Source of the DNA: Narthecium ossifragum
Lineage: Eukaryota > Streptophyta > Magnoliopsida > Dioscoreales > Nartheciaceae
Length of the DNA stretch: 64,000 bases
Assembly (NCBI GenBank): GCA_963920575.1
Contig: OY986974.1
Coordinates: forward strand, 5,216,729-5,280,728
Direction of reading: 5' to 3'
Shown: piece after piece, positions 8,349-56,798 of the stretch
Layout of the letters: every line of letters begins with the position of its first letter
How positions within the stretch are numbered: the first letter of the stretch is position 1
Notes under the pieces: model-generated
Seen by the model: the letters and a program-made list of their open reading frames with translations, nothing else
Database searches by the model: none
What the model was told of the DNA's origin: nothing
Program-made: the position numbers and the translations under genes

Positions 8349-8353
8349 TTTTT

Positions 8354-8371
8354 TGGCACGCCCGGTGGGAC
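8354..8371 (+). other. Tat primer-binding site
   Basis: TGGCACGCCCGGTGGGAC begins five bases after the LTR end. The TGG start pairs with a tRNA CCA end, as expected for minus-strand priming. I could not assign the tRNA species from memory. Confidence 0.75.
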
Positions 8372-8386
8372 CTGTGTTAAGTCTTT

Positions 8387-12585: not shown

Positions 12586-12588
12586 TGT

Positions 12589-15500: not shown

Positions 15501-16311
15501 AATTGTGGCAACAGATTACTTTACTAAATGGGTGGAAGCGATTCCATTAAAAAAATGTTTTTGATGATTAAGTGATAAACTTCATTTGGGAAAACATCAT
15601 ATGTAGATTTGGCATTCCACAAACAATTGTGTCCGATCAAGGGACAATGTTTGTAAGTTCTAGGGTAAAGAATTTTTTGGCTGAGTATAAAATTAATATG
15701 GCCAATTCTACACCCTATTATGCCCAGTCTAATGGACAAGCTGAAGCGTCCAATAAAACCATCAAGTCTATCATAAGAAAGATGATGGACGATAACCCAA
15801 GGCAATGGCATGAAGGTTTACTAAGAGCGTTATGGGCACATAGAACTACACCTAAGTCTAGTACTAAGGTTACGCCTTATCAATTAGTTTATGGTCAAGA
15901 GGCGGTGCTACCGGCTGAGATAAATGTTCTATCGCCCAGAGTTATGGAACAAGATCGCTCAACTAGTGAGGAATATGAGGACGCATTAATGTATAATCTT
16001 CTAGAGCTCGATGAGCAACGAGCTATTGCTTTAGAAAATATAGAGGCACAAAAGTTAAAAGTGGCCGATATCTACAATAAAACGGTAGTATCAAAAGAGT
16101 TTCAAGAAGGAGATCTAGTTTGGAAAACGATCCTACCTATAGATCGTAATGATCCCAAATATGGAAAGTGGTCGCCCAATTGGGAATGACCATACTTGGT
16201 CGATCAAGTATTTCCAAATGGATCATATCAACTGAGGAATATTGACGGTGGGTTGCATCGATCAATGATAAATGGTCGATACATTAAGAAGTATTACCCA
16301 TCAATGGAATA
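12589..16311 (+). pseudogene. Tat pol: reverse transcriptase, two RNase H domains, integrase, broken
   Basis: Replication and integration enzymes. RT spans about 13170-13900 with the catalytic YVDDIVV at about 13708. The ordinary RNase H follows to about 14510. A second RNase H of the Tat type begins with YFDGSKT near 14580. The integrase zinc finger is at about 15240-15375 and the core runs from about 15420 to 15900. Breaks: a one-base frameshift near 14690, a frameshift plus TAA near 15560-15572, and a TGA at 16187-16189. The last recognisable residues end at a stop at 16309-16311. The long open stretches that survive indicate recent decay. Confidence 0.9.
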
Positions 16312-16609
16312 AAAGGCATAGAAGGAAAACGTCCTTAAAATATGGATGATAGCAATTAACAAAATACGACCTTGAGATTTGGACGACAGCAATTGACAAA
16401 TATTGTTCATTAAAATTGTCGGCCAAAAATTTTTACATTACAAGATTTTATCGCACATATCAGACAAGAAAAAATTATCTCTTCAAAGAGAGATTCTGAG
16501 ATAAAAGAGCAATTTTTTCACGGACTGCCCTAAAGCGTTGCTTGTTCTTCACAAGCTCACCCTTCAACTCGACTTGGTGATCTTTTGAGGAATTCGCCTC
16601 CAAAGCGAC
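16312..16609 (+). other. Spacer between Tat pol and the antisense gene
   Basis: About 300 bp between the end of integrase and the end of the antisense coiled-coil exon. It holds several CGNCCA/TGGNCG words like the rest of the element and no coding sequence I can support. Confidence 0.6.
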
Positions 16610-19600
16610 CTACTCTTGCATCATTTGATTGCCCTCCTCAGCCAGTTTAGTAGTCTCGTGAAGGAGATAGTTCTTTTGAGTGGTGCACTGGGCGATTTTT
16701 TCCTCTAGCTCTTTCATTTGGTTTTGGTAACCAAGGATCTCTGATTCTTTTTCGCCAATATCATCAGTATTTTTCTGGAGATGTTTAACACGGTTACTGA
16801 TGATATCTCTTATGTGAGTACGCCATTCTTGACGTTCCCCTATAAGAACTATCTCATTCATTAGGTTATTCCTCTCAGCAGTCAGACTCTCAACTTTGAT
16901 CTTAATGCTGTGAATATCGTCCATATCACTGGACGAAAACCCTAAGACTGTAGGATCCACGGAGAGAAAAGGTGTTATAGCTTTGTCCAGTGCTTCACTA
17001 TCTGATCTGGTGAAGTCTTCTTCAGGTAGTTTGTCCAAAACTACAAGACATTGAGATAAAGCACGCCTGAATTCTTCATGTTGACTGCCTTGTGCAACTT
17101 CAGGGTCAACAGTCATTTTCTTGGCAGTTACTATAGAATGCCAGGAATCCGAGAAGGTCTGGACAATATTCATTAATTGGGCGAGATCGCCCTGAAAAGA
17201 ACAAGCATTCAGTAAGAGTTAACACTAAATGGTCGAAAGAATCAAATTGAACTATTGAATACCTGTGAAGAGGTAGAACTGGATGGATGAGCAGTGGGAG
17301 TAACAAAAGATGAAGTTGAAGTCCTCATTACAGAAGGAACAGCTGCCGGGCTTTTAGTAGTCGCCCTTGTTTGAACATCAATAGTTGATGTTAAAACATG
17401 AGAAGTTGGCGATATAATATCGACCATTACTTGTTTAAGGATACCACAGCGGGATGTTGGAGATGCAATGATTGCCTCTGTTGATGAGACAACTGGAGAA
17501 GCAGCGACGCCCGGTTTAACAGTTTTGGCCGAGGGATCTTCAACCAGAGGTGGAGCAGCTGGGAGATTAGGAGAAGCTGATACAGAAGATAAACTCGCAT
17601 TACCAAGGTCTCGTAAAAGACTATACGGACCGTGAACGAGTATTCTACCAGTTAATGGCAAACCTGGTTTAGATGGAATTGCATTTAAGACGTCAAAAAG
17701 GTTGTTATCGTCTTCATCCTCCTCTTCTCGACCAGAGTCTTGGCCTCCAGACTTTTGCTTCCTCGATTCCTGAAGATTTAAACGTCAGAGAATGGTCGAT
17801 AGATCGATCATCAGTAAAATAAGGTTATCTATACTTTTAAATTCTTTTGGGTGAGTCGTTTGATTCTACCACCAGAACGTACATGCGCCTTTGCCTTTGA
17901 AGAAGATTTGGCCGAGGAAGTTGGAGGCACACTCTTATCAGCATGATCAGGAGAAGTTGGAGGATGTTCCTCGACCATTTGTGATGGAGATGTATCAACC
18001 ACAACCTCATGAACTTTGGTTGTAGGTCGAGAAGGAGACAAAGAATACACAGAGCTCGGAGTACTAGAGCCCACCTCTACCGCAGTCCTGAAAACGTAAA
18101 GGTTTAAGTATCAAAAGGAGAATACCAACATAACTGGAAAGAAAATATTATGATACTCACGTGGCATGAGCAGATTGACTGCTTCGATGACTGCTGCCGG
18201 GAGAATCAACCTTTTCCTCTACAACTGGCCGAGAAGATGATTGATCTTTCGGAGAGGAAGAAGGCTGAGGTTGGACGATAGTTTTTTCTTTCCCACGTCT
18301 CTTTATGAGAGGTTCATCATCCTCATCGTTGGAACCTATCGATCGAGGAGACGATTGATTTTTTTGGAGAAGAAGATGGTTGAGGTTGGACGATGGTTTT
18401 TCCCTTACCACGCTTCTTTTTAGGCGGTGCATCGCCCTCATCGTCTGAACCTATCGATCATATGTTATTAAATTAAGAAAGGATATCAAAAAATCAAGAA
18501 GAACGATGAAGATATACCTTTTGTCTTTCGTTTACTTGGTGGAGGACCAACAGCCATTTGCTTTTGTCTTTTCTTCTCCTTTGGAGGAATGAATTTCTCA
18601 AAAACTAGGTCCTTGTCAGCAAAGAAAAGACGTTCATCGACCATTTCTTTCCAGCTGTCCGTGATACTAGCTTCAATCTCGCTAGTAGGCTCAAAAGGTC
18701 TAAGCCTAAACCTCTTAATGAGGAGCAATTCTCTCTTATCCACATAAATTACTCGCTCAATGTCTGGGAAGATACATCGCCCTCTAGCGACAATATTGAA
18801 GCTGAAGTATGGTGGCACTGGCCAAGATTGTTTAAGGCCAAATTGGCGAGCAGCAAAATTGGGAGCATAAACTTCTACTCCACATTTATTGTTCGCCTTA
18901 CCCCAAGCCGTATCGAAGTGAAGATCACGGCCGATAAGAAAACGGGCCCAAGCCAGTATCTTATCATCAGACTCTAAGTCTGAAGAAAGATCAAGTAAAG
19001 GCTTAATGGACGATGGGTGAGACTCAGGGTTGAATGGACGATATGAAGAAAAATTGGACAAAGTATAGAAATAATTGAACGCCTGTCGAAAGGACTTGGG
19101 AATAGAAGATGAAGAAAGATACAAATGGCCTTGAGTTCTGGCCGATGAAGATGAAGGCGGCATATGAAGATCAGGGAAGTAAGCTCTAAGCCATAATTGG
19201 ACGAGCCACAGAGGACCAAATCCCGTCAAGCTACCACCTTCCCTCAACTGTTCAAGGACGAGATACATTCCTCGGTAGATGGCCGACAAAACAAAAGGTG
19301 CAAGAGAAAAAAACTTGTTTGCCTGAAGAAAGGTCCTGAGCGAGTGGGATATACCCCTTGACAGGTCTTTTGGTAGGAAGGCAAAGGACGTATTTACATA
19401 GCCAATAGTAAATGAACGCTAATCGTTCAAGAGAGTTTAGAGGGCCATCGCTCTCAGACAACTTGGCATAGTAATTAATGAAAAGGCTATAGTTCTTATC
19501 GGCCTCAAAAACAATTTCTTTCTTGGGTACGTCCATATTGGCCGATACAGAAGTACTAAGTGGAGTTAAACCCATTAAGAGCGATATGTCCAGTACAGTT

Positions 19601-20103
19601 ATGGTGAGCGAACCAAAGGGAAAGACAAAATTGTTATATTCTGTCGACCAAAAAAGGAGCGACGAAATAAGCAAGTTAGAGTCTTGAAGAGGAACCCTGG
19701 TGCTCAAATCCAAAAAGTCTAAAATACCCGCATCAGAAAAAATTGACTTAATCTCAGAATGGCCAATCATCCTATTATACCATTTGACAAACTTGTTATC
19801 AACTAACGGCCAGGAGATGATAGGATTTTTTGAAGAAAGAGAAGATAAATTTAGGGTTCCAGAAAAGGGCAAATCGCCAGAAATAGGAAAAGAATGAACA
19901 AGAATAGCCTCCTCGGAATCAAGAGAAGAAATACTTTCAGGAATGAAGCAATGACCCAAAATAAACAACTGAGAGTTAAGGTCACCTTCCCGGACCAGAT
20001 AATCGCTCCTTATGTCCTTCGACTTCATGTTCTCATTGTAATCCCCAACGGCGGACGTCACCTCTTTCTGCACGTCGTTGTCAGCCTTGATCTCGCGCCC
20101 CAT
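16610..20103 (-). pseudogene. Antisense plant mobile domain (PMD) gene inside the Tat element
   Basis: A multi-exon gene opposite to gag-pol. The PMD (aminotransferase-like) part runs from ATG 20103 to about 18486 and includes MGLTPLS and the FGPLWLVQLWLRAYFP stretch. The frame shifts by one at a T run near 19307-19316 (as read on the minus strand), after which it continues from 19289. Downstream Ser/Pro/Lys-rich exons are at about 18441-18157 (with a diverged in-tandem repeat of a KGKTIVQPQPSSSPK-like segment), 18074-17829 and 17661-17242, followed by a coiled-coil exon at 17173-16610 (SLTAERNNLMNEI, MKELEEKIAQ). GT donors follow several of these pieces. Tat elements are known to carry extra ORFs, some with domains shared with DNA transposons. 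The function is unknown; PMD proteins of the host act in transposon silencing. Confidence 0.75.
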
Positions 20104-20441
20104 GATGACGAAAGGGTGTAGACGCCGGAGTTAAGAGGAAAAGAACAAAGAACCGCCGCGGAGGTAGGTAAAGAGCAGTAAAACCCTAGGAGACTTGAAG
20201 AAGAAGACAGGCGAAGAAAGTTCTTTCCTGGCTAAAGGAAGGGATTTAAATAAAGGGTTTTTTGTCGTTACTTGCCAAAAGGTTTAAATGCCGGATCCCA
20301 AAAGATTTGGATAGAGAAAAGAAACGGCGCAGCGGTTCATTTTCCTAAACATCCGCTATGATTAAATTTGAAAACCTAGGCAAAACAGTCAAATCCCGTC
20401 TGATGCGGTTACCTCGTCATTAAAGCGTCTCCTCGATTACC

Positions 20442-20456
20442 GCATGGGGGGCAAAA
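20442..20456 (+). promoter_or_regulatory. Tat polypurine tract
   Basis: GCATGGGGGGCAAAA directly precedes the TGTTAG start of the 3' LTR, the position and composition of a plus-strand primer. It ends exactly at the LTR border. Confidence 0.8.
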
Positions 20457-20979
20457 TGTTAGCCAAAATAATGGCTAAATCATTAATGACGGACACGTAA
20501 GCAAAAAAGTAATGATTAAATGGACGATAACTATAGAATTATCGACTAAATGAATGATATAATATCGACCAAATGAACGATGGAATCCTATCGACCAAAT
20601 GGACGATAGAATATTGACCAAATGGACGATATCGTCCATATAGCACCATCACTTAAGGGACTAAGGACGATAATCGCCCAAAAGTCACAATTGGACATGT
20701 TACTCAATATCATCGTCTAAAAGCAATTAACACGTGTGCCAAATATGATTAAAAAACACATGCAGGTATGACGTGGACAAGAAACGATAAGTAAGCCAGC
20801 ATAATCGTGCCGTATGCAACGAACGAGCATCGACCACGTGTACTCTCCAAACCAGACACGAACGTGGGAGAAGCTGTTATGGAGCAGTTCGCGCACGATC
20901 TCCTCCTTTTACGCCATCAACCCTCAAGGCGGGAGCAGTTATTTAGTTCCTAGGATAAATAGCTTCTCTTCTCCACTGT
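20457..20979 (+). repeat. 3' LTR of the Tat element, truncated
   Basis: 523 bp, aligned to 7610-8133 of the 5' LTR. I count nine substitutions, all transitions, and one single-base indel. Identity stops after CTCCACTGT at 20979, where the 5' copy goes on into its poly-C run. The missing 215 bp include the CTAACA end, so element and neighbour meet at a breakpoint rather than a normal LTR border. Confidence 0.85.
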
Positions 20980-23100
20980 CAATTTAATCCTCAAGTTCAT
21001 ACAAAAATTTCGACAGAATCCCCTTTATAATTATAGCACAAGAAACCTGTACATTTTATAATTTCAACTTGAGCAATGACACCATTGTAGATAACTAATT
21101 ATTACATTTCTCAAATGTCTACATTAAAGAATATTACAACATTTCTCAAATAGAACTGAATTAATAATCATACAATTCTGTTATTGGATACATCAGATTA
21201 TTCATCAATTTGTACATCATTGATTAAAACTGTACATTAACTGTAGAAGAACTCCTTGAAGCTCCAAGTCCTCGATCAACTCGAAATATCACACCATCTT
21301 CTAAAAGAACACCTGAAAGAAGAAATTGCATCGACATTCATCGCCGATGCAGCCCAGGTAGGGTGAGCAACAATGCCCAGTAGGGTTCTACTCTACGTCG
21401 CACAGAAAGAAGGTGAAACTGCAACTGTGTCGTTCTCTGCCTAAGCCTAAGGTATGTCAAGGGGCCCCATAACCCCGTCAATTCCTGAGGGCTCATGTCC
21501 AGGTCCCACCCTCACCCAAGAACAAATGAGAGGAAACAAATACTGCGGGCTCCTGTCCAGGTACCACCCTGCCCAGTCATACCATCTCTCGCGGGGACAC
21601 ACATGTCAAGGACATCGACAACCATCCTTAACGCTTGGCTTTGGAGATCCGACACGACCTCTACACCTCAAGTACAATAATATCAAACATGGTCGACTAT
21701 AACAATAACCTCAAATGACATCAAACATAATTATTGATGACAATCACGTCCTAATCCTTGACTACCCAAACCCCGGTCCTAGGGCTAGATCCAGGGTACC
21801 CGAGAACCCTGGATCGGCGATCGAATCCATCGCCTACCACCTAGCCTGAATGCCTCTAATGTAAGCATCATGCATGAGCCTATTCAAAGAACTAGGCCTA
21901 GGTGTCTCTACATGCTAAATCATCAGTCAATTGTCCACGATGTTATAACAAAGATACACATTTGGCATACCATAAGTTGAGAACAAGACCATCACGAAAA
22001 ACAATAACCTTTCAACTATTCACATGCAGGGAACGCCTTCAACCCAACTAAACTACACATTTCCAAGGGGCTTCACTCCCTTCGTTAACCCACAAATAAA
22101 AATAGAAACGGGCACACCGCCGGCCCTAGGCTTAAGCATGGTATAAGTGTATAATAAGTGGACAAATAACAAGAACTTGTAGCAATTGAGTAAAGGGAGG
22201 AACAATTGGCACCAATGATAACCACCAGTAGTATGCACATGGACCATAGCAACATTCAGCATAAACTAATTGGAGGGCTACCTTAGCATTTCATTCAAAC
22301 ATTAATTCAGAGAATTAGAAGGACACTAGGACTCACTATCAAATTTCAGCAGCGAGGGGCAAAGCCACGAGCACCTTGCCGGCAAGTAACCGACTACACA
22401 AGAACACAACCCGCAAGGGTCAGATGTCCTACGACCATCCAATCCACACAGTAGTACCACGAGGCAAGGGAAGAATACCAGTACAACTACGACCATCAAA
22501 GAAGAAGGAAACTGAGCTTCTAACTCGAGAGCAAGGGAAAACAGGGGCATCTAAACAGTCGCGGCAATCCACGCAATCACAAACACTAAGAGCAACCCAT
22601 GGCAGCAAGGAAACGAAACAGAGCAGATGCAAAGATGGGAGGGGAAGAACACCATCGGAGCTACAAACACAGAACTGATGCATAAATCCTAAGCTAACAA
22701 CATCGCAGTCCATCGAACCAGGGTAAGGGGAGAGATCTCATCAAGAAAAACCACCACTAATCCATAACGCCAGCAAGGAGAAGGTGAAGAACATCAATAG
22801 AGGACCCACAAGATCAACAGAGCATCAAGCTAACACTAGAGGGGTCGAGGAGGTCCAAGAGGAGAAGAAATCTTGTCACAGCCCAACTACAACCTGCAAA
22901 CCCAAACTAACACCAAGAGACTCAAGGGAAAAATCGCGAAAATGGACAGGAGGACCTCCAGTATCCGGCCAACCAAGAACAGAGGAGAAGAAAATCCACA
23001 GAAAGCCATCGATCAAAACCAAAAACCACAGAAGCAAGCAAGAAATCTCATCAGAAGTCCGTTGGCATCCAAAGTTCTAAGAAACCGCAGCAAAGAAGAG
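20980..23100 (-). repeat. LTR family copy A, minus orientation, truncated
   Basis: It shares with the other copies of this LTR family a CAGTAGGGTTCTACTCTACG word (21380-21400) and the neighbouring GCCCAGGTAGGGTGAGCA block, the reverse complement of 24484-24545. The end next to the Tat element lacks the TGTCRCGCCCC terminus of copy D, and its promoter end is not visible. Short open frames here look like chance. Confidence 0.6.
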
Positions 23101-23427: not shown

Positions 23428-23955
23428 CCCTGTCCCTTTCTCTCTCTTTCTTTCTCTTCTCCTGTCGTTTTCTCTCCTTCTCTCTCTCCTTCGGCTAAGC
23501 TAGGGTTTGGAGACTTGGGCTTCAGAGCGCGGATCTTGGCGGCTTGACCAGCGGGACGCGTGGAGAAGCTACCCTACTTGCTCAAGTAGGTGTTTCTACC
23601 TCGATCCTAGGATCGGGTTCTCCTAGGATAGGTTTATTGTACTTTCGCTATAGGAATACATGTTAGAATGCTATGTAGCTCTTTGTGCATGTAGTGTGGA
23701 GGATTTGAAGTATTCTTATCTCGCTTTTTCCGTATTCTAACGGTTGGTTTTCGTATTATCGCCGTTTTGTCGGTTTTCGTCCATTTGGACCTAGATAAGA
23801 GATTTAACAGTCAAAAGCTGGATTTCTTCATCCCATTAGCTTCTCCATTGTTAAATACGCTTGCTTGCGAAATCTCTTTGTTTTCCAACTTGATTTGATC
23901 CTTAAAATCCAAGAAATTGGATTTCCGGCACTGTTCTGAAGAACTGTGCCTAAGG

Positions 23956-24354
23956 CTCGACGGTCGATCGGTGCATCGACCGTCAAGCATTGATACGCTC
24001 CTTCGGTGCTCGACGGTCGATCGGTGCATCGACCGTCAAGTATTGTTTTACTCTTTCTGGGCCTGGCGGTCGACCGTCGCATCGACCGTCGGGCTCTGTC
24101 AGGATTTTAGCCTCCCAGGGTCGATGCATGGATCGACCGCGGGATCTTCTCTTTTTGGCCATTTACCTGACGGTCGACCGTCGCATCGACCGTCAGGCAC
24201 TGTTTGGTTTTGGGCTTCTCAGGGTCGATGGGTGGATCGACCGTCGTCCCTTTGGTTTTCTTCGCGTTGGTGTCACGGTCGACCGTGACATCGACCGCAC
24301 GGTCGACCGTGACACCGACCGTGGTCTCACGGTCGACCGTCGCATCGACCGTGG
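23956..24354 (+). repeat. Array of nine fixed-geometry dyad repeats, TCGA-N8-TCGA
   Basis: TCGA pairs start at 23964/23976, 24017/24029, 24070/24082, 24121/24133, 24174/24186, 24225/24237, 24279/24291, 24303/24315 (CCGA in the second half) and 24333/24345. Every pair is exactly 12 bp apart. Most read CGGTCGA-N8-TCGACCG and can fold into a hairpin; flanking bases often extend the stem (GACGG with CCGTC, CACGG with CCGTG). The sequence between units is unrelated. Confidence 0.9.
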
Positions 24355-24908
24355 GCCCTTGAACTGTGTCCAAGAGAGAGGTTCATGACAGGAGCCCTTG
24401 GGACACCGATGGGTTATGGGACCCGTGGCATCCGTTAGACTTAGACTGGGAGACAATACTGTTGTTGTTTCCCTCCTTTCAGTGTGCCGTAGAGTAGAAC
24501 CCTACTGAGCTTATCGCTCACTCTTACCTGGGCTGCGTTTGCAGGTGCAGGCGGCAGTTCTTCGTCTGTGGAGCCGGCGGGATCGGCCTTTGGCGGCGCA
24601 AGTACATCCAGAGGTGCTTGAGGTTGCTGGAGGATTATCTGTTGTACCCTTTTTGATATATATATATATGTTGTTGTAAACATTTTGAGGATTTTGAGAT
24701 TTTGTATAAATCTGTCTCTTGGAAGATTTTGTATCAATATGAACTGTACAACTTGATGATATATTATAATTGAATATCTGTTCACCTCTGGAATACAATT
24801 GTTTAAATTATCCGTCTTTTCCGCTTTGTATCGCGCCGATTGAAGATGAATAGTGATAGGAACCCTTACGTTCCATCCTGGATGGGTTTTCTGGGTCGGG
24901 GTGTGACA

Positions 24909-26400
24909 TCGTGAGCATCAGATCTACCAACCCATCAAGTTTGGTGAAGTTTGGTTTGGTTTTCCGGCCGTGATTACCGTCGAAAGTTGGCCGGAGGGCC
25001 GGTTGGGATCGATCCAGTTGGATATTGGATCGATCCAAGTTGCACTCAAGATGGTCTGTTCACTGGTGGAAGTTGGATTGATCCATGGGTATGTTGGATT
25101 GATCCAGTGTTTCCCAGGAACAGTGTTTGAGGGTGACAGAGAATGGTTTTCTTGGTTTTCCAAGTCGGATCAATCCAAGGGCAAGTCGGATCGATCCACG
25201 GGCAAGTCGGATCGATCCAAGGGCAAGTCGGATCGATCCAAGGGCAAGTCGGATCGATCCATGGGTATGTTGGATCGATCCAACGTGCACCAGAATGCAT
25301 TTTTGAGGCTGTTTTGCCCGCGAGGCTTCGTATGTATGCGGTTTTAGCGGTTTTGCCCGTGGGGGCTTGCCATGATAGTTTGTTTATCGCTTTAATGGCA
25401 TGTTTATTGATATTGCTATACAATGCTGTCTGTTACCGCTTTGTGGTTGAACTGGGAGAGTGATGACTCCCGGGATTGTGTAGAATAAATGGACTGACTG
25501 TATGCCCTTTATCGCTTTGTGGTTAACCGAGGGAGTCATAACCCTCAGGAATGTTTAGTATAAATGGGCCGAAGATGTGCCCTTGATTGTTGTCTGTTTC
25601 TACTGTTGTTTTGCCTAGCTTTCTTGTGCATTAGAGGCATGTGAGGCTAGGCGTGGGCGGTGGTTGACCGCTGATCCGGGGCTCTCGGGTAACCCGGATC
25701 TAGCTCTAGGGGCGAGGCTGGGTAGCGAGGCATAGGGTTTGGCTATAGCACTGTTAATATGATGTTTGAGGTTTGTTCCTTGTACTCCTGTATCAATTGC
25801 TAAGAGGTGGATGTCGTTACCCTGACATGTGTCGTTATGTCCACCCTGTGTCAGGGATTGTCGGAGGTGGCCCGTCCTTGAACAGTTGCAGTCGGAGGGA
25901 CGTACTTTGGACAGGAACCCTGGGGGTATCGTTGGGATTTATGGGCTCCCTGGCAAGTCTTAGCTTTTGATTTGGAGTCTAGAGGTCGTGTCAGCTCTGT
26001 TGCTTTGAGTGATGAAAGTTGGTTGTCATAACCACGGTTGTTCCGCCAAGTGTGGAGATCCCGCTTGAAGAGGGGTGTCCTACTGGTATCGTCATGTCCA
26101 CCCTGTGTCAGGGATTGTCGGAGGTGGTCCATCCCTAAATAGTGGCTGTCGGAGGAACATACTTTGGACATGTACCCTTTGGGTTAATGATGGGATTTAT
26201 GGGGTCGTTGGCAGGCCTCAGTACTTGGCACAAAGTTAGTTCAGTTGTTGTTGCCTTCCCTGTGCGCGTCGTAGAGTAGAACCCTGCTGAGCTTTTGCTC
26301 ATTCCTACCTGGCCTGCGGTATTTGCAGGTGCATGTACCAGCTCTCCTTCTGTGGGCCCCAGTTGCTCGTCCTGCGGCAGCGCGTCGACATCAAGTCCTA
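24909..26400 (+). repeat. LTR family copy E, plus orientation, truncated at both ends
   Basis: It carries the family blocks in sense order: a dyad array (25009-25285), the CTCTCGGGTAACCCGGATCTAG block (25682-25704) and the GTAGAGTAGAACCCTGCTGAGC block with the exon-like TTTGCAGGTGCA (26272-26340). A 90-bp stretch containing CCACCCTGTGTCAGGGATTG occurs twice (25840 and 26098). Neither terminus is present. Confidence 0.6.
25009..25285 (+). repeat. GGATCGATCC dyad array with 21-bp period
   Basis: Self-complementary GGATCGATCC words, some with one C-to-T or G-to-A change. Six consecutive units start at 25165, 25186, 25207, 25228, 25249 and 25270, each 21 bp apart, with the spacer AAGGGCAAG or near it. 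Three to four looser copies precede at 25009-25105. Confidence 0.9.
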
Positions 26401-30059: not shown

Positions 30060-31140
30060 GGGAGAAGGAGACGCGACTTGATTTATATTGTGCAGAATTA
30101 TGTGAAAGTCCAAGAGGGGGTGGTCTTTGGACCTTTAACGAATAATCGATGAGTGAAAAACCTAGATAGGAGGAGTCTAAGAACTCATATGCTTGTAAAT
30201 AAAATGAATGATAAATAAACTAGCAATTAGAAGAATATGAGGAAGGGTTAGAGAGATTGCACCATATTTTTATAGTGGTTCGGTCAACCTGCCCTGCATT
30301 CACTTCACTCGAAGCCCTCCTTGAGATTTCACCACTTGCAAGACCTTTTACAAGCTTTCCACTAAGCTTTCGGGAGCTTGGCAACCTTACAATCTCCTTA
30401 AGACCTATTGGGTATCCTCCAAGTCACTATTGGATATATCTCAAAGTCTACTTCACAACTTATAGTAGTTTTATAAAGATTAAAGCTCTCAACAAAGAGG
30501 AAAATAAAAGATAAATTTGCTACAATGTATACCAATTATCCCATTGGTCTTCTTACAAGTTTCTTGTATCTCCTCTCTTATACTTGAGCTTCCAAGCCTC
30601 CCAAAATAGCTCGTAATGGCTATTTTGCTCTTCTCCAATGATTATATTTCTGACTGACGGTCGACCGTCGCATTGTCCTCCACATCATCTATTGCGCTCA
30701 AACTATAGCCAGAATTGACCGCCGCATCAGGCTTCAAGCTTCACGGTCGACCTTCGCATCGACCGTCACATCGACCGTCAGCCTCAATGAGGAAAAAAAC
30801 TTCTCATGATCGATGCCTAAATCGACCGTCACTTTTCCAAAACAAGTCACATAGGCCATGGTCGATCGGTGTATTGACCACTACATCATCCGCCAGCTTA
30901 CAACAATAAAACGGCTTTCCCTCCAAGCCAATACTTAGCCAAAGTATTAAACACACAACCATTCTCCGCGATCGATCCGTTCATCGGTGGCCGCATCGAC
31001 TGCGAGTACAAAAACATTTAAATATTGAATTTAAACATTTCAAAATTAAGGGATATAAATATTAAATAATTGTTTATCATTATTACACTTATTGACATCA
31101 TCAAAACAAGATTAGGATCAACACTATGAACCACAAAGAA
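30060..31140. repeat. Repeat inserted in the pararetroviral leader, with dyad array
   Basis: GC-richer sequence interrupting the viral leader. It includes a TATAGTGGTTCGGTCAACC stretch (30275) of a kind found in plant retrotransposon LTRs, and an array of TCGA-N8-TCGA dyads. Exact borders and a target duplication were not found, so its class is uncertain. Confidence 0.45.
30661..30988 (+). repeat. Second TCGA-N8-TCGA dyad array
   Basis: TCGA or one-base variants pair at 30661/30673 (second half degenerate), 30747/30759/30771 (three in a row), 30810/30822, 30862/30874 (TTGA second) and 30972/30984 (TCGG second). Every interval is 12 bp, the same geometry as at 23964-24348, in an apparently different element. 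Confidence 0.8.
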
Positions 31141-31214
31141 CATATATAAAAGAAACCTTTTATAGACTTCATCATTCCTTAATTAAGTCTACATAACTAC
31201 TCTACTAAGAATTC

Positions 31215-31229
31215 ATGGCTCTGATACCA
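31215..31229 (-). other. Pararetroviral primer-binding site
   Basis: Minus strand TGGTATCAGAGCCAT, the complement of the initiator-methionine tRNA 3' end used by caulimovirids (and by Copia elements). It lies about 200 bp downstream of the TATA box on the same strand. Confidence 0.75.
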
Positions 31230-31424
31230 AGAGGGAAGAAACGAGATAAAAAAAAAGGAAAAGAAAGAAAGATGACAAAGGATGTGCGAATGTAGTATAC
31301 AAAAAGTGAGTGTAATAATATAGTTTAAAACTTAAAAAAATACAAAAGCTCTTCAGCAGAACCGGCGACATTTATTTATGTGAACTGAGGTTACAAATGC
31401 GTGCTTTATAACAAGAATTCAGCT

Positions 31425-31434
31425 CTATTTATAG
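31425..31434 (-). promoter_or_regulatory. TATA box of the pararetroviral promoter
   Basis: Minus strand CTATAAATAG within GTCTATAAATAGAGC, the usual form of the strong pararetroviral promoter TATA box, correctly placed ahead of the primer site. Confidence 0.65.
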
Positions 31435-31639
31435 ACGAGGGTTGAACTCGTTAGAAGAAACGAGAATAGGCTAAGATGTTTTTAATAAAGAGATTCTTTT
31501 AAGGAAAGAATCCTTTTTTTATTTGAATGATTAAGTTGAGAAAAGAATCTTTTTAATAAGGAGATTCTCTTCCCTTAGATACACATTGTATGTTAGATAT
31601 AAATATAATTATATACATAAAAAGATAGTATATACATTT

Positions 31640-32120
31640 ATATTATATAGCATATATCAAGATGGTTAACTTATATCCATCCTGTTATATCCTACGTGGA
31701 TCCTTCGTAATAGGCTTAATTTTATGTGGAGCCTACGTGTATGGGGAAGTTAGTGGAGGAGGGGCTTAATGGGGATGAGGAGGAAGTTAGTGGGTGGTTA
31801 ATGAGGACATTAATGGGGAAGACGGGGTAAGTTAATGGGAAAGTTAGTGGGAGCTAACCTGCCACTTGGGAGAGGGCCCACTAGTATATACATATATATA
31901 TCTTAGGTGGTAGGTAGCACAGGTAACCACTCACCCTTACTACCCCTAACTATCCACCCTCACCGTCATCTCTCTCCTCCCCTTTCAATGACTCAGCTGC
32001 CATGTGTCCCTCTCTCTCCTTTTCTAACCAACCACCCTCACCGCCCTCTCTCCTCCTCCCCTCTCTATGACTCATCTGCCACGTTTCTCCCTCTCTCCCC
32101 ATCTCTTTATGACTCAGTTG
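31640..32120. repeat. Modular repeat, left outlier
   Basis: Short modules of the 1.19-kb tandem family: CCTACGTGGATCC, GTGGAGCCTACGTG and AAGTTAGTGGAGGAGG at 31690-31870 in reverse orientation, then CCACCCTCACC and CTATGACTCA modules in forward orientation to the assembly gap. Confidence 0.65.
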
Positions 32121-32320
32121 NNNNNNNNNNNNNNNNNNNNNNNNNNNNNNNNNNNNNNNNNNNNNNNNNNNNNNNNNNNNNNNNNNNNNNNNNNNNNNNN
32201 NNNNNNNNNNNNNNNNNNNNNNNNNNNNNNNNNNNNNNNNNNNNNNNNNNNNNNNNNNNNNNNNNNNNNNNNNNNNNNNNNNNNNNNNNNNNNNNNNNNN
32301 NNNNNNNNNNNNNNNNNNNN
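32121..32320. other. Assembly gap of 200 N
   Basis: Exactly 200 undetermined bases. The size is a round number, so it is probably a placeholder and not a measured length. It hides the left end of LTR copy C. Confidence 0.98.
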
Positions 32321-34455
32321 GAGGGGGGGAAACCTACATCTACTGACAACCAACAGCGGAGACAGTTACAATAAACCAAAAAGGCGGAAGTAAAGTTAAC
32401 ATTAACTATAACAAAACGTTATAAACATCAGAGTTACATGTACAATTATCAAAAAGAGGTTACATCTTCTAGAGTCTCCGCAAACACACAGACAAAGCCG
32501 TCCTGGCCCTCAGACATGCTCGGCGGGCGACGCGCTACCGCAGGACGAACACCGGGGAGCCACAGGGGAAGGGCTGGTACCTGTACCTACAAACACCGCG
32601 GTTCAGGTAGGAATGAGCAAAGAGCTCAGTAGGGTTCTACTCTACGACACACACAATGAAGGGCGACTCCAACCGTACTAATTCCGTGCCAGTACAACCC
32701 CTAAACTCCAAACCTCTCATAGTATGACATCACTGCGCAAGGAAAACATAACATGCAAGATGGCATACATAGTATAATCCAGCTAGAACAGATACTGCCT
32801 GGGCTGGGCTTACTCCGACAGCCCCTAAAGTACAAGAACCGACACGACCTCGAATGCACATGAAAGCAAGACAAAGATACTACCATAGAACAAACATGCA
32901 GATAATTAACAATATTAACAGACAGATAAATAACAGTAAAGCATGTAACAAACAAGACAAAATAAACAAAGCAGTATAGCAGACAATTAAACACAGTAAA
33001 GCAAGCAACAAATAGGACAAATATAAATAAAGCAGTAAAACAAACAAATAATATAACAGTATAAACAAACATCATTTATCGTAATATCACTAACATGTCA
33101 ATCCCTGTTTCCCTCAGATACTGTTCCTAAGAAACCCTGGATCAATCCAAACGTGCCCAGGGATCGATCCGACAGCCCTCAATGAACAGACCATCTTGGT
33201 GCAACCTGGATCGATCCAACCCGAAGTCGGATCGATCCAACTTGCATGGATCGATCCAACTCAAAAGGTCCAATAACAAGAACAATATTCTCTACACAGC
33301 TGCTGTTTGAACTGTCGATCCGACGTCCAACCAAAGTCAGATTTGGGATCCAAGCTAGCTTCTGTTAGATCTATAAGCATGGATCAACATACCCAAAATC
33401 CAGATTCATCCAACGGTTAGATTAACGGGAAAACGCTAATCAAAACCACTAATTAAACTAACTTACCCATTTAATTACTGCAACGCAGCCCGTCAGTAAT
33501 AAATTCATAAGAAATCGTAGAAAAATCGGAAAAATGCGAAATAAGATGGAATGGAAAGCTAACGCATAGATCTACAACTCTTGTATTCAACAAAACCCAA
33601 GATCATGCTTGTACAAGCCGGGAATCTCGCCGCAAGCCGGCTGTTCTTCATGAACAGCAGAAAACCGGAAAAACCGCGAGTAATCATGCATAAATCCCAC
33701 TCAAAACTCATCCAAAGATTATGAAACTTAAAACAGAAACTCTACTAGGCAAGATGCATCTAATACATGAAGATCAGCCGGATCCATCGGTTAGATATGG
33801 AGAAACCTATTAAATAGTGCATGTAGGTAGAACACCTACTAAAGCCGTAATCCTTGGATGATCCCCGCTAAACAGCTGCTAACCACGCTACTAAACCACG
33901 TCAAAGATCATCCTCACGTCGCCACGATTCCAACGAGCCTTCAAGCTCCCAAAATGGTGGCCGGAGGAGGGATAACGACGAAGGAGAGCGGGCTACCGGA
34001 GGGAAACAGAGCAAGCTCTGCTTGCGGGAAGAACCAGCAAAGGAGAAGGAGAGGAGAGGAGAGAAGAGAAGGGAAAGAGGGGAAGAAAAGAGGAAGGAGG
34101 AGTAGGGGAAGGCCGGGAAAAAGGGAGGAGGCCATCCCTTCGCTGACAAAGGGAGTGACGGCCACGACGGCCGTCCTCGCGGAGGAAAACAGGACCGACT
34201 CACTCATGAGTCCAATCGATCGCTCCTATGCGCGATCGATTGCTCACGGGCCGCCAGTTGCCAAAAAGCAAGCTTCTGTGCGCCCGAGCGGGGATCTTCC
34301 GATCCCGGGTCCACCTAGCCATTCTATTCAAACACATACACTAAAACAAGGCCTGTGTGTGCACACGGGTGTGAAACAAACCAACAAGGAGCAATTTACC
34401 AAATTGCCCTTATGGTCAACAACGAGCCACAAGATTTGAGGGACGGGTCCTCACA
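32321..34455 (-). repeat. LTR family copy C, minus orientation, one end in the gap
   Basis: Its sense start is the complement of GGGACGGGTCCTCACA ending at 34455, identical to the end of solo LTR D. It contains the TAGGGTTCTACTCTACG block (32630), a GGATCGATCC cluster at 33128-33262 related to that of copy E (shared neighbouring words such as AGACCATCTTG), and an ATCGATCG...CGATCGAT dyad at 34216-34243. No coding capacity is seen. Confidence 0.7.
33128..33262 (-). repeat. GGATCGATCC dyad cluster in copy C
   Basis: Five GGATCRATCC words at irregular distances. The stretch around CAGACCATCTTG (33190) matches the complement of 25050-25065 in copy E, so C and E inherit the same array type. Spacing in C is looser than the 21-bp period of E. 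Confidence 0.7.
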
Positions 34456-50353: not shown

Positions 50354-50893
50354 AAGAGGAGCTAAGCTCTATTCCCTCACCATGAGAAGAGAGAAGAGAG
50401 AAGAGAGAAGAGCTAAGCTCTGTTTGGAATCTTTTCGAAACCCTAGATAGAGCTGGAAGATGAGAAGAGAGAAGAGCCGGAAGATAATAGAGCTGGAAGT
50501 TGAGGGCAATAAGGTCTTTTTACCTAACGCCGTTAACGGCGTTAGGAATATTCCATGAAGATTCACCGGCAAGTAACCCGAGGGGTAGGTTTATGGATTG
50601 TTCAAAATTTGAAGGGTATTTTAGTAAGCCAAAAAAATATAGGGGTAATTGTGATATTTAGAAACTTTTGAAGGATAGATACGTAAAAACCCCTTTCTTT
50701 AATGGGTGGTTTTAAATGCAATATAATATTTGATGTATGCACCCATTTTACTAGGTGTACCACAAGCAATTTTGATAGTACAACATATTACTGGGTGCAC
50801 CACTCTCCCATGACGATATTAGCCTTAGTTAATTAAGCCAGGTGAGAGGGTAACATCCGATATTACCCTTCTCCCCACGATTTAAACCCTCGC

Positions 50894-51200
50894 ATGCACT
50901 CGCCGCTGTCCTCCGTATTCCGCCCTCGTCGTCGGAGAAAACCACCATCGCCGGAGCCTTCGCCCTCTCTCCCGTCGCCGCGACCTCTGTCCTCCTCCCG
51001 TCGCGTCCCTCCTTTAGCACATTACGGGTTAGTCCGCTATTTTACTCGCCGGCATCATTTTAGCATCTATCCTTTTAGTTCGGTCCTGTAAATCCGTTCT
51101 TAAACCATCATCGGTCCTGTAAATCCGTTCGTAACCGAGACGAGAGATGCAGCCCTTGGGGTTTAAACGGACTTAGAAAACCGGTTTTTTCCCCCAAATT
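50894..51200 (+). other. Region upstream of the left dyad array
   Basis: GC-rich then AT-rich sequence that may be the first, largely non-coding exon and promoter of the PMD gene. No start codon or splice donor stands out enough to call. Confidence 0.3.
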
Positions 51201-51532
51201 CGGGTTTAAAACGCCGATATTTTGTTATTTCGGTTTTATTAAACCGATTTGTCTCCTTATATTCGGCTATGTAAAACCGAACTATATTTCCGGCATGTTA
51301 TGACCGATTAATTTCGAATAGTTCGGTTTTAAACAACCGATTGTTTATTGTTTCGGTTTCTGGATGCCGAACAGTTGGTATAATTTCGGGTGTTGGTAAC
51401 CGAACATTAGGTATAATTTCGGGTTTTGGTAACCGAATTAGGTATAATTTCGGACTTTCGGGACCGAACATTAGGTATAATTTCGGACTTTCGGGACCGA
51501 ACATTAGGTATAATTTCGGGTTTCTATAACCG
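51201..51532 (+). repeat. Left CGG-N10-CCG array, 11 units
   Basis: CGG words start at 51201, 51231, 51264, 51291, 51324, 51354, 51387, 51420, 51451, 51484 and 51517, each followed after exactly ten bases by CCG, most as TTCGG-N10-CCGA. The N10 parts differ (TTTTATTAAA, CATGTTATGA, ACTTTCGGGA and others). Units repeat every 27-33 bp, most often 33. An intron-like TTGTATTGCAG acceptor follows at 51545-51555. Confidence 0.95.
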
Positions 51533-51560
51533 AACTTGTCATGTTTGTATTGCAGGAGGC

Positions 51561-53044
51561 ATGGCAGGAAAAGGGGAGAGCTCGACTCCTCTTCCTCTTC
51601 CCCACAATATGCGCCAACGCCCTACGGCATCAGAGAGGCAAAGGAGAAGAAAGGAACATGAGGTGACTAATGAGGTTCCAGCTGATGCGATTGAGCCATT
51701 GTGGGAGGCACGACCGGGTGATGATGAGTTCGATACGAGTGGGCCTATTCCTGGAGGGCCTGAAGATGAATCGATCCTAACGCTGTTCATGACCCATGTT
51801 GCATATCGGATATGGCGTGGAGTGGTATAGTACTTGATACTAAATGTAATTTTTACTTAATTATATACTATTCACTACTGTTACAACAGCTGTTTTATTT
51901 ACTCAATGACGTAGGAACGCGGTCCTTTGAAATGTTTGGCCCACGGGACTATGGTGGCTGATTGGGGCGGCGTGGAGACGGCTGAATTCAGAGAGGTCGT
52001 GCATGTATCAGGACTGGGGAATTTGCTGGATTGTACATATAGTACAATCAGTAAGGTGTTGGTGTCGGCACTCGTTGAGAGGTGGCAACCGGAAACAAAC
52101 ACATTCCACCTACCATGTGGCGAAATGACCATCACACTTGCTGATGTGAGGACCATTCTGGGTATCTCCGTCACTGGACCGGCCGTAGAGCTTCGTAAGA
52201 TGGCCACTGAGGAAGCAGCACGGCTGGTTTGTAGTCAATTGGGAGTCTCTATGGAGAGCGCACTGGCTCAACTGAATAAGAACAAAGGAAAGGCACTTAG
52301 ACTGACATGGCTCAAAAGTGAGTGCAAAATAGAGAAAGTTGGCCTGGATTGCTCAGTAAAGGCCTACTTGCTCTACTTGCTCGGCTGTACTCTATTTTGT
52401 GATAAATCTGCGAGCAAAGTGCATGTGTCTTACCTTTTTGCACTGAGGGACTTGTCTAATACGGCCCAATATGCATGGGGAGCTGCGGCCCTAGCGTACT
52501 TGTACCGACACTTGGGTGTCGGTAGTAGATGGGCTACGAAGCAAATGGGAGGGTACCTTACCTTGTTGGAGGTAATATCATCACACATGTATGGCATGTG
52601 GATCATATATTTACCAGTACTCCTAATTATTTTTATGATTTGCAAGCATGGATATACGATCACTTGCCGACGATCGCAAATCCACACCGCGATATACGAT
52701 ACACACCAGACCAGCCGCGTGTGTATCGCTGGATCCCTGTTAGAGATGGCGGTAATCCTGCAGATAACCTTGTGGTCAAGCGTGAGGAGTTAGATGATCT
52801 GAGAGAACATCAGGTGAGTTGTCGTGTCCTCGTGCAAGCTCTTTTAATTTCCGTATACGATATTTACTCGTGCAAGCTCCTTTGTTACAGGTTTTGTGGG
52901 ATCCCTACCGTGACAAAAGGGGAGGACCATTTCCTAGCGATGACATCAGTTTTTATTTCGGACTCATTGTCGCCTATGTGGACTCATTGTCGCCAATTTC
53001 AATGGTTTTCCTCGTGGCAACATTGGGTCCCTTGATCTCCATGA
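51561..53044 (+). pseudogene. PMD gene of the large MULE
   Basis: Plant mobile domain protein. The first recognisable exon starts at ATG 51561 (MAGKGESS), after the acceptor at 51555, and runs to about 51824 (YRIWRGV). The main PMD exon is about 51915-52573 (HGTMVADWGGVETAEFRE, then TFHLPCGEMTITLADVRTIL, the conserved PMD core). The next exon ends at 52813 (DQPRVYRWIPV, LREHQ then GT). The last starts at 52891 (VLWDPYRDKRGGPF) and loses frame after about 52990, the rest (LDLHEMLGLLVMD) being in another frame. The splice into the AWIYDH exon near 52648 is not clean. It ends within about 100 bp of the transposase gene, tail to tail. Confidence 0.75.
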
Positions 53045-53072
53045 AATGCTTGGCCTGCTTGTCATGGATGTC

Positions 53073-53462
53073 CTAACCCTTGGCACATTCTTGTCTGCAT
53101 CTGAGCCAGCTCCTAGCTATGGGTGGGATAGGATGACCAGGGTGCATGTGGATCATGACGAAGTGTCCACCATTCACAAAACCAATTGCGATGGTCTTCC
53201 GCATGAGGGCCGGCTGCGGGGGGCTCCAAAGTGGCAGGAAAGTCAAGCACTGACTCGCGAAAATGTGGATTAAGACAACTTCGTAGCGAGAGGCAATAAT
53301 AGGTCCCATATCTGGCATGGTCATCCACCCATCAACAGGAGGATAGTTCTCATAATAAGCCAACCTGTTGGCAAGCTCTGAAACTCTCACCTCACCCTCG
53401 TGATACACCCGACAGTACTCAGTACTATGTGCCATCAATTCATTCCCCAGATCCCTCCGCAC
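53073..53462 (-). pseudogene. OTU protease-like C-terminal segment of the MULE transposase gene
   Basis: Encodes RRDLGNELMAHSTEYC, WMTMPDMGPIIASRYE and GGHFVMIHMHPGHPIPPIA, resembling the second half of OTU-type cysteine protease domains found in plant MULE proteins, including the catalytic-type His in GGHF. The N-terminal part with the catalytic Asp/Cys (DGxC) is missing. The preceding transposase frame runs into this region one frame off, so a deletion and frameshift separate them. Confidence 0.65.
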
Positions 53463-55818
53463 CTAGACGGGCCAGTGCATTTTTGCACGATAGGTTTGAG
53501 TCTGACTTAGAGGTCATAGGCAGTACATCCAGCTTCTTCCAATAATGATATACACTAGAGAGAGGTACAACCCTGTCTTCTCGCCTGTACTCCGCAATCT
53601 CATGGGCACATGGCAAACCATGGGTACGCCTTACTTGGCAGCCGCAAGCATGCTCGTCTGGGCCTATATCCTCTGCTCGTTTGGCCTCTGCACAGATGAT
53701 ATCGAGTGCGGTTTTTGAGACGAAACCCCTTAGCTCTCAGAATATGGCTGGCCTGAAATCATGCTGCACAATGTACTTGCTCTTCTCAAAAGAAGCAAGG
53801 ATCTCCGTGTGTTGGAGCTCGAGCAGGGCATTGATCGTGGTCCAGGAGGTGTGAAAACTGCAGTTCGATGCCCCCAGATGCCTCTTCAACTTTGCATGTG
53901 CACTCTCAACCCGATTTGTAGTGACATTATCGAAGTGCATACATTTTTTTGTCCATGCGCTGACAAACAATTCCTTGTACTTGAGCAGCCATGACTCCTT
54001 GACATAATCAAGAGCACTTGGGTAGCCGCAGAAGGACTTCTCCATTGACTCCACATTTTGGATAAATTCTGTCTCAGTCTCAGAACTAACAAGCACCTCC
54101 CAGCTCAGCAGAAAAGATTTCCACTTCTCATTTGTCCCAAACATCTTTTTACAATTTGATGTTATATTCTTGTTGATATGCCACCTACATAGCATGTTCT
54201 TGGTGTTAGGAAACACGGACTGCACAGCCTTCATCAAACTAAGTTCCCTATCAGTCAGGACAACCCGGGGCAGCATGCAACCCTCCAACAGTGATTTTAA
54301 CTTCTCCATGGCCCATTGGTAGGTTTCCTCTCTCTCAGACTCAAGGTACGCAAAGGCGCCAGCAAATGTCATACCTGTATTCAAGAAAGTCAACTAACCG
54401 TCTAAATCAATCCTACTCGATCACATAGTGACTAATAGAAAACTATAACAAATTCATATGTCAATTACCTGTGGGCGTCACTCCAACAATCTCGAGTAAG
54501 GGAAGCCGGTACTTGTTGGTTTTGTATGTGCAATCCATAATCAGCACCTCTGGAAAGGCACGCAATAGCTCAACCGAAGACGGGTGTGCCCAAAATATGC
54601 TTCGGACACAAGATGTGTCATCACTGCTCGTATGCCACTCAGTATAACAAGCATCATTTAGGTGGCCCAAGAGTTGCTGCATCTCTGATCGACCGGCTTT
54701 CTCAATTACCCTATGCTTCTGTCTTGCATTATAAACATGTCTTATGGTTGACACATTGTGCTCATTCCTCTGCTTCAGGGTATTCAAGATCATCCTCGGC
54801 TTGATTAGACTCTTGGACATGTCAACTAAAATCATTTGTTCCTCTTCTGATAATCTCCCAGCATATGCATGACCCTCAAGATGAGGTGCAGATGGGTGGT
54901 TATGCACGTCACATTCCACCCTGATCATCCAGTCATCATCGGATGGTAGCTTCAGTCCCCGGACTTTGAAGGGACAGCCACATTTCTTAGTGCCGCAGCT
55001 TTTCTTCTTCTTGGCCGGAGCCTTCTTATCAACAGCTTTCCTCCATTGGGACGAGTCCCTATATTCACCACTTCTCTCACATGCCAAAAGGAGCCTTGGT
55101 TTTCTACCAAACCCACCCGTCTCTGAGCTTTTGATCACTATGACCAGCCCATTCTGCCTACCCACTTCTTGAGTCCACTGGATCAGGGTTTCACGGCTGT
55201 GAAATATCTGCATGCATGAATAAGAAAACGGTCAGTTGGAAAAAAAAATTACCATGTTAGTAGAAAACAGTTGTGCATACCATGTTAGTCGTGAACATCG
55301 ACGTGTAATCCACGACAATCGCATGTCCAACACCACTGCCAGCAGTGGAAGCATAGTCCTGTCATATCACAATTATTATACTCATTTCGATATAAAAAAA
55401 CCGATAACTTACGAATTGTTCGGCTTCCAACAACCGAACAATGATGCAAAAGTCGGCTATTCAAAACCGAATATAAGATAAATCTTCGGTATATACGAAC
55501 CGAAAAATTATAGTCGGCTTTATGAAACCGAACTTCGCATACAATATCGGTTATAAAAAACCGTTACATATAAAGTTTCGGCTAGTATGGACCGATAAAT
55601 ATACAATTATCGGGGTTTTGAAGCCGCTAATTATTATAAAGTTCGGTTTGCAATAACCGACAAATATAACAACGACCGGCCTGGTTCGATCAGGACGCGC
55701 TACTTCAGGTTAACAAAAAAAAAATCCAAAACAAACCGAAAAAAGAGAACTACGATACCTTAAGATGGCCCGTCGTTTCGTCCGCGTGCTCTGGGGATGA
55801 TAGGCTTTCCGAAGCCAT
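53444..55818 (-). pseudogene. MULE transposase (FAR1-type), four exons, internal stop
   Basis: Cut-and-paste transposase. Exons: 55818-55759 (starts MASESLSSPEH), 55358-55281, 55207-54469, and 54374 onward. A FAR1-like DNA-binding region (GCPFKVRG, VECDVHNHP) comes first. The DDE catalytic positions are visible as IMDCTYKTNKYRLP (D1), VLTDRELSLMKAV (D2) and ESAHAKLKRHL (E), and a SWIM zinc finger (CGCQ, then GLPCAHEIAEY) is at about 53650-53590. A TGA at 53735-53737 lies between the DDE and SWIM parts. All introns have GT/AG ends. Intron 1 contains the right CGG-N10-CCG array. Confidence 0.9.
55385..55665 (-). repeat. Right CGG-N10-CCG array in transposase intron 1
   Basis: About nine units, among them CGG-CTTCCAACAA-CCG, CGG-CTATTCAAAA-CCG, CGG-TATATACGAA-CCG, CGG-CTTTATGAAA-CCG, CGG-CTAGTATGGA-CCG and CGG-TTTGCAATAA-CCG. 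All have ten bases between the half-sites. A tenth, at 55388, has CGA for CGG. The mirror position of the left array. Confidence 0.92.
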
Positions 55819-56220
55819 CTTCAGCCCTCGTTAGAGCGAGTGAGAATGATGTCGATTTGGGCACGATGTGTGGAGGTCTGTAGGAGGCAATGTAGGTGGA
55901 GATGGGTCCGCGTGACCGTGAGGAGCTGCTGCAGGTGCTTCGGGAAGTAAGATTGGTGATAGAGGACGGTTTTTTGAGGTTGGAGGTAGGGGACGGGTTG
56001 AGTTGAGGAGCTCGCTGGTTGTAGGTGACGATGTAGATGACGATGCTTCATAGGTCGTGATGCACACAGTAAATCCAGGGGTTTACACTAATTAGCTTTG
56101 GATAATTAATAAAGGGAGTTAATTGAGGGCATTTTAGTAAACTCATGATAGGGATATACTGGGTAATAATATTAGGTGGTGCACACATAAAATATTGTAT
56201 TGCATTTAAAACTACTCTTC

Positions 56221-56798
56221 TTTAATAACACCAAAAATAACTCCTCCCCTGGCGATCAAGGTCCGCCGCCGGTGAGGGACGGATGGTGTCGTGGGCAACT
56301 TTACAGAGATCGCCGCCACCCTCCTAGCCGCCCATCCACCATCTCCCGGAGACCCACCACCTCTCCCCCTACTTTCTCTCTCCTCTTTCCGTCTCCTCGT
56401 CCCCGCGCGCGGCCTTCTCCTTCCTCGTCTCCTCGTCTCCTCCCCTCCTCCCTTCACCTTCCCGTCGACCAGCCACCCCACGTCACCGGCATCCATCGAT
56501 TCTGGCGACGAGTCCATTACTTCAGGAAACCGCACCAACCGCACCACTACCATTTCTCTCGAGCACCCAAGACCCCAACTCCATCAACCCCGCCTCCCTC
56601 CCACGATCACCAACCTCCCAGCAAGCCGCAGCCCCATCGCCCTCATCTCCGATCACCGGAAACAACGCCCTCACCTCCTAATATCTCCTCTCGGCGTATT
56701 CCCTGCGTCCCTCCCGTCTCCGACGTGATCCGCGCCGGTGAACCCATCATCGGCACCGTGAAAGGGTGAGGGGAGCAGTTTTTTTAGGTGTTATTAAA
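56221..56798. mobile_element. Small inverted-repeat element in the right end of the large MULE
   Basis: Inverted ends TTTAATAACACCAAAAA at 56221 and the complement of TTTTTTAGGTGTTATTAAA ending at 56798, with CTCCCCT-type similarity just inside. The interior is GC-rich and Pro/Ser-rich in translation, resembling a captured exon (SDVIRAGEPIIGTVKG near the end), but I cannot name the gene. No target duplication found. Confidence 0.55.

Follow-up and report, generated by a model that had tools for sequence, protein, structure and literature searches.

CGG-N10-CCG arrays in a PMD-carrying Mutator-like element of Narthecium ossifragum: candidate sites for the element's own PMD protein

A Mutator-like element (MULE) of 5514 bp, here called E1, was found at positions 50704-56217 of the window, the whole 64,000-nucleotide stretch of Narthecium ossifragum DNA that was analysed (contig C12, 5216729-5280728; genome-wide searches covered the 379-Mb assembly of 150 contigs). 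E1 carries two arrays of a dyad, CGG and CCG separated by ten variable bases (N10), together with a gene for a PMD protein and a gene for a MULE transposase. With a probability of about 0.5, these arrays are cis-acting sites that are read by the PMD protein of E1 itself, in an anti-silencing system of the VANC type. A preliminary description had ascribed the arrays to selection on two half-sites at a fixed distance, and had proposed as their reader the transposase or an element-encoded regulator; judging from the left unit period, it had also suggested that the sites may lie along the same side of the helix.

Every one of the eleven left units given in that description (51201-51532) is exact, and we found a twelfth at 51168 together with an outlying pair (51081 and 51112). 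The "about nine" units on the right are eight exact ones (55421-55659) and one CGA-N10-CCG at 55388. All counts below refer to 20 units, 12 left and 8 right, with the outliers and the degenerate unit excluded. The spacing of exactly ten was also confirmed, N10 being the sole CGG..CCG spacing within 3-22 in the segments 51181-51545 (11 units) and 55371-55680 (8 units), and shuffled sequence held far fewer units, with means of 0.195 (left) and 0.103 (right) and maxima of 3 and 2 in 1000 dinucleotide shuffles per segment. The invariance of the six half-site columns follows from how the units were found; a one-mismatch scan of both arrays gave a near-unit only at 55388, plus a chance overlap at 51277. 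The rest of the window, beyond 50600-56300, has 6 N10 pairs, no commoner than other spacings (3-17). When all 3-mer half-sites at spacings of 0-20 were scanned over the whole window, with ten block shuffles as control, CGG-N10 was the densest among half-sites with at least two G/C (12 in 380 bp versus 3-4 shuffled). A TA microsatellite gave AT-only half-sites higher scores, up to 18, and the region at 23.9-25.3 kb has further dyad arrays that come near it (9-11, and 13 for ATC-N17); dyad arrays as such are therefore not unique in the window.

Genome-wide, pairs of N10 units with 10-25 bp between them number 4379, versus 676 for the same pattern in reverse. We fetched 20 stretches around such places, all from the first places listed and all on contig C1; eight contained a run of at least three units, and two had PMD and transposase matches, overlapping and representing one element, E2 (C1:4800635-4809605), which has GGGTGCGGCTATCCGCA as its ends and is flanked by the perfect 9-bp duplication TATTCCTAT. 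Its PMD is 58% identical to that of E1 and its transposase pieces 61-71%. E2 has 6 exact N10 units at the left, 7 in a middle array located between its two genes and 5 at the right, and three more N10 matches (two left, one coding) are single G/C-rich places that were not counted. The E2 half-sites read ATCGGTA..TACCGAT, with TA after CGG in 16/18 units and TA before CCG also in 16/18, compared with 1/20 and 0/20 in E1, where TT tends to precede CGG and A tends to follow CCG. The N10s of the two elements have 3.11 of 10 bases in common, near the 3.05 expected from the composition of E1. As the preliminary description had anticipated for related MULEs, E2, the sole relative examined and thus the one element on which this comparison of spacing rests, keeps N10 while the N10 sequence and the flanks differ, except that spacing drifts in part of the middle array.

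No PMD or transposase match was found in the other 18 of the 20 fetched stretches. Many of these contain short repeats that can be aligned over about 150-400 bp and have ATCGGTAGTG..ACTACCGAT units, which means that the genome count of N10 pairs is inflated. These short repeats are possibly non-autonomous partners. Loci L014, L015, L018, L019, L021 and L024-L031 are short non-coding repeats with units of this same type, and their half-sites resemble those of E2.

Several observations weigh against a strictly invariant spacing held by selection. The middle array of E2 also has three N11 units and one N12 unit, at least some of which are mutual copies; all four lie within 75 bp of the exact E2 units, as do five N10 units in which a single half-site base is changed (another one-mismatch match, at 5104, is probably fortuitous). 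Within E1, tandem duplication took part, although the preliminary description had not accepted it as an explanation of the constant spacing: Tandem Repeats Finder (TRF) reported 5.2 copies of 33 bp with 86% matches at 51367-51535. The statement that the N10s differ stands for 19 of 20, those at 51451 and 51484 being identical, and the N10s are not random, with a T-rich start and an A-rich end. Their final base is A in 17/20, in the same plus-strand direction in both arrays (10/12 and 7/8). Perhaps, then, duplication of 33-bp units is the whole explanation, the dyads persisting through youth and the spacing being unselected. The TRF repeat is consistent with this, as are the similarity of N10 pairs within E1 (4.25 bases alike versus 3.05 at random) and the retention of CpGs outside the half-sites as well. 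However, the spacing is common to E1 and E2 without common N10s or flanks, and the linkers vary while the cores do not: linkers other than 17 were found in 7/18 cases and cores other than N10 in 0/20 (Fisher P 0.0025, a generous value because the units are related by duplication). We therefore regard duplication alone as quite improbable. What stands of the earlier proposal is a fixed-distance motif in a MULE with PMD and transposase genes, for which an element protein is a plausible reader; the drift in E2 and the duplication in E1 qualify the selection that it had assumed.

The predicted fold of the PMD domain of E1 matches the VANC21-DNA structure. This match came from the fold search only, and a sequence search of the PDB with the PMD gave nothing credible. 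We propose that each unit would be a dyad whose CGG and CCG, with centres 13 bp apart, are contacted by a protein that is dimeric or two-headed and for which almost any N10 is acceptable. The most likely reader would be the element's PMD protein, acting in the manner of the VANC proteins of VANDAL elements: it would coat the repeated sites in the non-coding parts adjoining both genes and would clear the element of silencing marks or keep them off, an effect confined to places that have its own array. We infer that the PMD protein binds the arrays as a dimer with an anti-silencing effect, and we likewise infer that the arrays are located in first introns. The right array is probably within the first intron of the transposase gene, at about 55759 to 55360. 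The left array, immediately upstream of a PMD gene start that we read by eye and that is probably near 51561, is perhaps in a 5' leader intron; both placements rely on splice-like sites, also read by eye. A coding function of the arrays was considered and rejected: one frame stays open in the left array, but periods of 28, 31 and 32 (right) and 31 (left) are not multiples of three.

The closest known systems are VANDAL21/VANC21 and VANDAL6/VANC6 of Arabidopsis (PMC5735166, PMC10398659), which, as far as the available text of these papers describes them, resemble E1 in joining a MULE to an accessory gene, and resemble E1 and E2 in having an element-specific short motif that is tandem in introns or non-coding parts and differs between related elements. 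The VANDAL motifs are 8-9 bp long (YAGTATTAY or AGTTGTMC in the passages available), whereas the E1 motif is a dyad that contains CpG and has one prevailing, fixed spacing, and no copy of the known VANC21 or VANC6 motifs was found in E1. According to the accessible part of PMC13317346, VANDALs are MULEs without terminal inverted repeats (TIRs), whereas E1 has TIRs; VANDAL/VANC pairs are anti-silencing systems, whereas for E1 this would be a predicted function. DUF287 had no match in the unspliced E1 open reading frames scanned, where small exons could escape, and the accessory protein is annotated as PMD. A match to DUF1985 was weak (E 5.3e-5; 23.7 bits, below the cut-off of 35.1), with 15/27 alignment members at E up to 0.01.

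MULEs that carry a PMD gene beside the transposase gene, often antisense as in E1, are described in the available parts of PMC5418596, PMC6446971 and PMC8616336. Among these, Ikeda et al. 2017 raised an anti-silencing role of captured PMD as a speculation (PMC5418596), and a 2021 review suggested that transposable elements may make PMD proteins to counter silencing, listing VANC and PMD as separate counter-silencing strategies (PMC8616336). In the text available, the three sources describe neither a target-site array nor a link between the PMD and VANC folds, to which E1 adds candidate sites and a fold match; the VANC review PMC13317346, in its available part, leaves PMD unmentioned. A literature search on VANC21 structures found none among the matches listed, and a paper may have been missed. 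In the sections available of PMC5418596 and PMC8616336, the function of PMD is called undetermined, even though PMD proteins of the host control silencing. Our finding would offer a concrete candidate DNA target for PMD and a structural reason to expect DNA binding, and E1 and E2, related but with different flanks, permit a direct test of specificity. If true, sequence-specific anti-silencing would reach beyond VANDAL elements. It is a real possibility, though somewhat less likely than not, that PMD is a VANC-type sequence-specific DNA-binding domain, that PMD-carrying MULEs each evolve CGG-N10-CCG arrays with private flanks read by their own PMD dimer, that they form a second anti-silencing lineage, of independent specificity, outside the VANDALs, and that host MAIN/MAIL proteins are domesticated or ancestral DNA readers.

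The transposase might instead read the arrays, its AFT/WRKY-like domain binding CGG half-sites as a dimer so that the arrays concentrate transposase at both ends. Its N-terminus is AFT-like by Pfam (PF08731), by a profile match to the AFT2-DNA structure 4lmg (E 1.1e-7) and by predicted fold (AFT2-DNA, E 3.7e-4; also WRKY domains). The inner array edges are 828 and 829 bp from the element ends, a symmetry that counts the degenerate right unit (796 bp if it is excluded) and would suit an end function. There is a precedent in the Ac transposase with AAACGG, and both Ac (PMC3260210) and CACTA elements with their TNPA sites (PMC2613891) have, like E1, short repeats inside both ends, there read by an element protein. 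These belong to other superfamilies, and fixed-spacing dyads are not described for them in the parts available of the two papers. However, the TIRs of E1 contain neither CGG nor CCG, and the E2 middle array lies between the genes, where end recognition has no need of it. AFT factors read a CACCC core, present in the left TIR within TGCACCC, so the domain may read the TIR, a weak point as the right TIR is without the full motif. We consider the transposase a doubtful reader of the arrays. The left TIR's TGCACCC is the motif given for yeast Aft1, and the right TIR has TGCACC only; this is possibly chance.

Coordinates of E1 features are collected in the table. The characters of a MULE present in E1 are a 9-bp target site duplication, TIRs and a MULE transposase domain. 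The TIR arms (50706-50743 and 56178-56215) are 38 nt and 89% complementary. The PMD gene, on the plus strand, and the transposase gene, on the minus strand, are convergent, facing one another. An in-frame stop separates transposase frames 53737-54393 and 53440-53736, where the gene may be broken or spliced; this copy of E1 is therefore possibly not autonomous. No SWIM zinc finger was matched by Pfam in 53440-53736, although a C-x-C...C-x-H pattern is visible there by eye.

Table. Features of E1 and its flanks, in window coordinates.
Feature	Position	Strand	Remarks
Left target site duplication, 9 bp	50695..50703	.	TTCTTTAAT; identical to 56218-56226
Left TIR	50704..50743	+	without CGG, without CCG
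Two outlying units	51081-51096 and 51112-51127	.	N10 identical
Left array, 12 CGG-N10-CCG units	51168..51532	.	periods 33,30,33,27,33,30,33,33,31,33,33
PMD reading frame (PF10536) of first gene	51915..52793	+	Pfam E 6.1e-45
Transposase reading frames	53440..55231	-	three frames
Transposase last frame	53440-53736	-	
Transposase MULE domain PF10551	53737-54393	-	E 4.8e-16
Transposase AFT/WRKY-like DNA-binding part and start of catalytic part	54461-55231	-	
Degenerate right unit CGA-N10-CCG	55388..55403	.	one-mismatch scan
Right array, 8 CGG-N10-CCG units	55421..55659	.	periods 33,33,28,33,31,32,33
Right TIR	56178..56217	-	without CGG, without CCG
Right target site duplication	56218..56226	.	TTCTTTAAT; perfect copy of left

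A host transcription factor or the silencing machinery could also read the sites, the arrays then being enhancers or nucleation sites of silencing. The short non-coding ATCGGTA..TACCGAT repeats along contig C1, where 18/20 of the stretches fetched matched neither gene, are consistent with this, and tandem repeats can be silencing targets, according to the available text of PMC10398659, an argument that we extend to CpG-containing ones. However, the flanks of E1 and E2 differ and are each largely uniform within the element, suiting element-specific readers, and in the literature as available the motif string was met in one paper only, on a fungal factor, plant factor databases not having been searched. 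Altogether, a host reader appears unlikely.

The CpG content of the arrays was examined next to that of the rest of E1. The observed/expected ratio is 2.1 and 2.3 in the arrays; the PMD frame has 0.64 and the transposase region 0.49, but the ratio is 1.03 at the right end and reaches 1.46 in a left stretch rich in GC. The CpGs of the arrays are located in the half-sites in 24/28 and 16/18 cases; with half-sites masked, 4 and 2 are left versus about 3.7 and 1.9 predicted by base counts, so the arrays overall are not CpG-depleted. No E1 unit with one half-site lost through CpG transition was found. L020 (C1 near 2622325), a decayed array of comparable type, has a changed half-site in 3/6 units. 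Low methylation, youth and selection at the sites are each compatible with this pattern.

Another possibility is that the units function in introns as hairpins, formed by RNA or by single strands. The minus strand of the right array folds better than dinucleotide shuffles (z -7.6), as does the left plus strand (z -2.7), and when letters were shuffled within N10s and linkers with the half-sites kept, the right minus strand still gave z -4.1, the other three cases giving -0.4 to -1.7. However, permuting whole N10s and linkers among units left the energy unchanged (z -0.05 to 1.1, four cases) and no dyad covariation was found within E1 (P 0.12-0.92, 8 positions). Folding stems from the column-wise preferences, the T-rich start and A-rich end, and not from unit-specific pairing, and for these reasons we hold a hairpin function to be most improbable.

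The spacing of E1 is that of Put3-type zinc-cluster sites, which is N10. Fungal zinc-cluster sites, CGG-Nx-CCG, have the site format of E1 in another kingdom, and the CGG-N10-CCG string occurs in the text available of PMC5215518. The preliminary description had used this likeness as an analogy only, which agrees with the absence of a zinc-cluster (Zn2Cys6) Pfam domain from the E1 open reading frames scanned. The paper on a barley MULE of unusual structure has no occurrence of tandem, subterminal, CGG or PMD.

In viral contigs, 9 loci with three TCGG-N10-CCGA units were found, and in 7 of these the G+C content is at least 61%. Four-unit CGG-N10-CCG runs with periods of 31-33 and a variable middle, iteron-like, were seen at L005 1882-1992 and L008 10960-11070; N10 spacing in these contigs proves nothing because they were selected by the query. 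Viral contigs and bacterial or archaeal genomes were also searched for transposase relatives, of which none was confirmed.

Other regions of the window also contain repeat arrays. A Ty3/gypsy element at 7610-20982, with long terminal repeats (LTRs) 97.9% alike, has PMD frames at 18486-20130 (minus strand); its LTRs contain an array of about 23 bp whose CGAT..ATCG dyads vary in spacing (13 or 12, 8, 0), contrasting with the fixed N10. Further palindromic arrays, of the GGATCGATCC and GGTCGATC types, are found at 23954-25283 and 30747-33262, partly inverted between about 24.4-26.4 and 32.5-35.6 kb, and these are probably another transposon.
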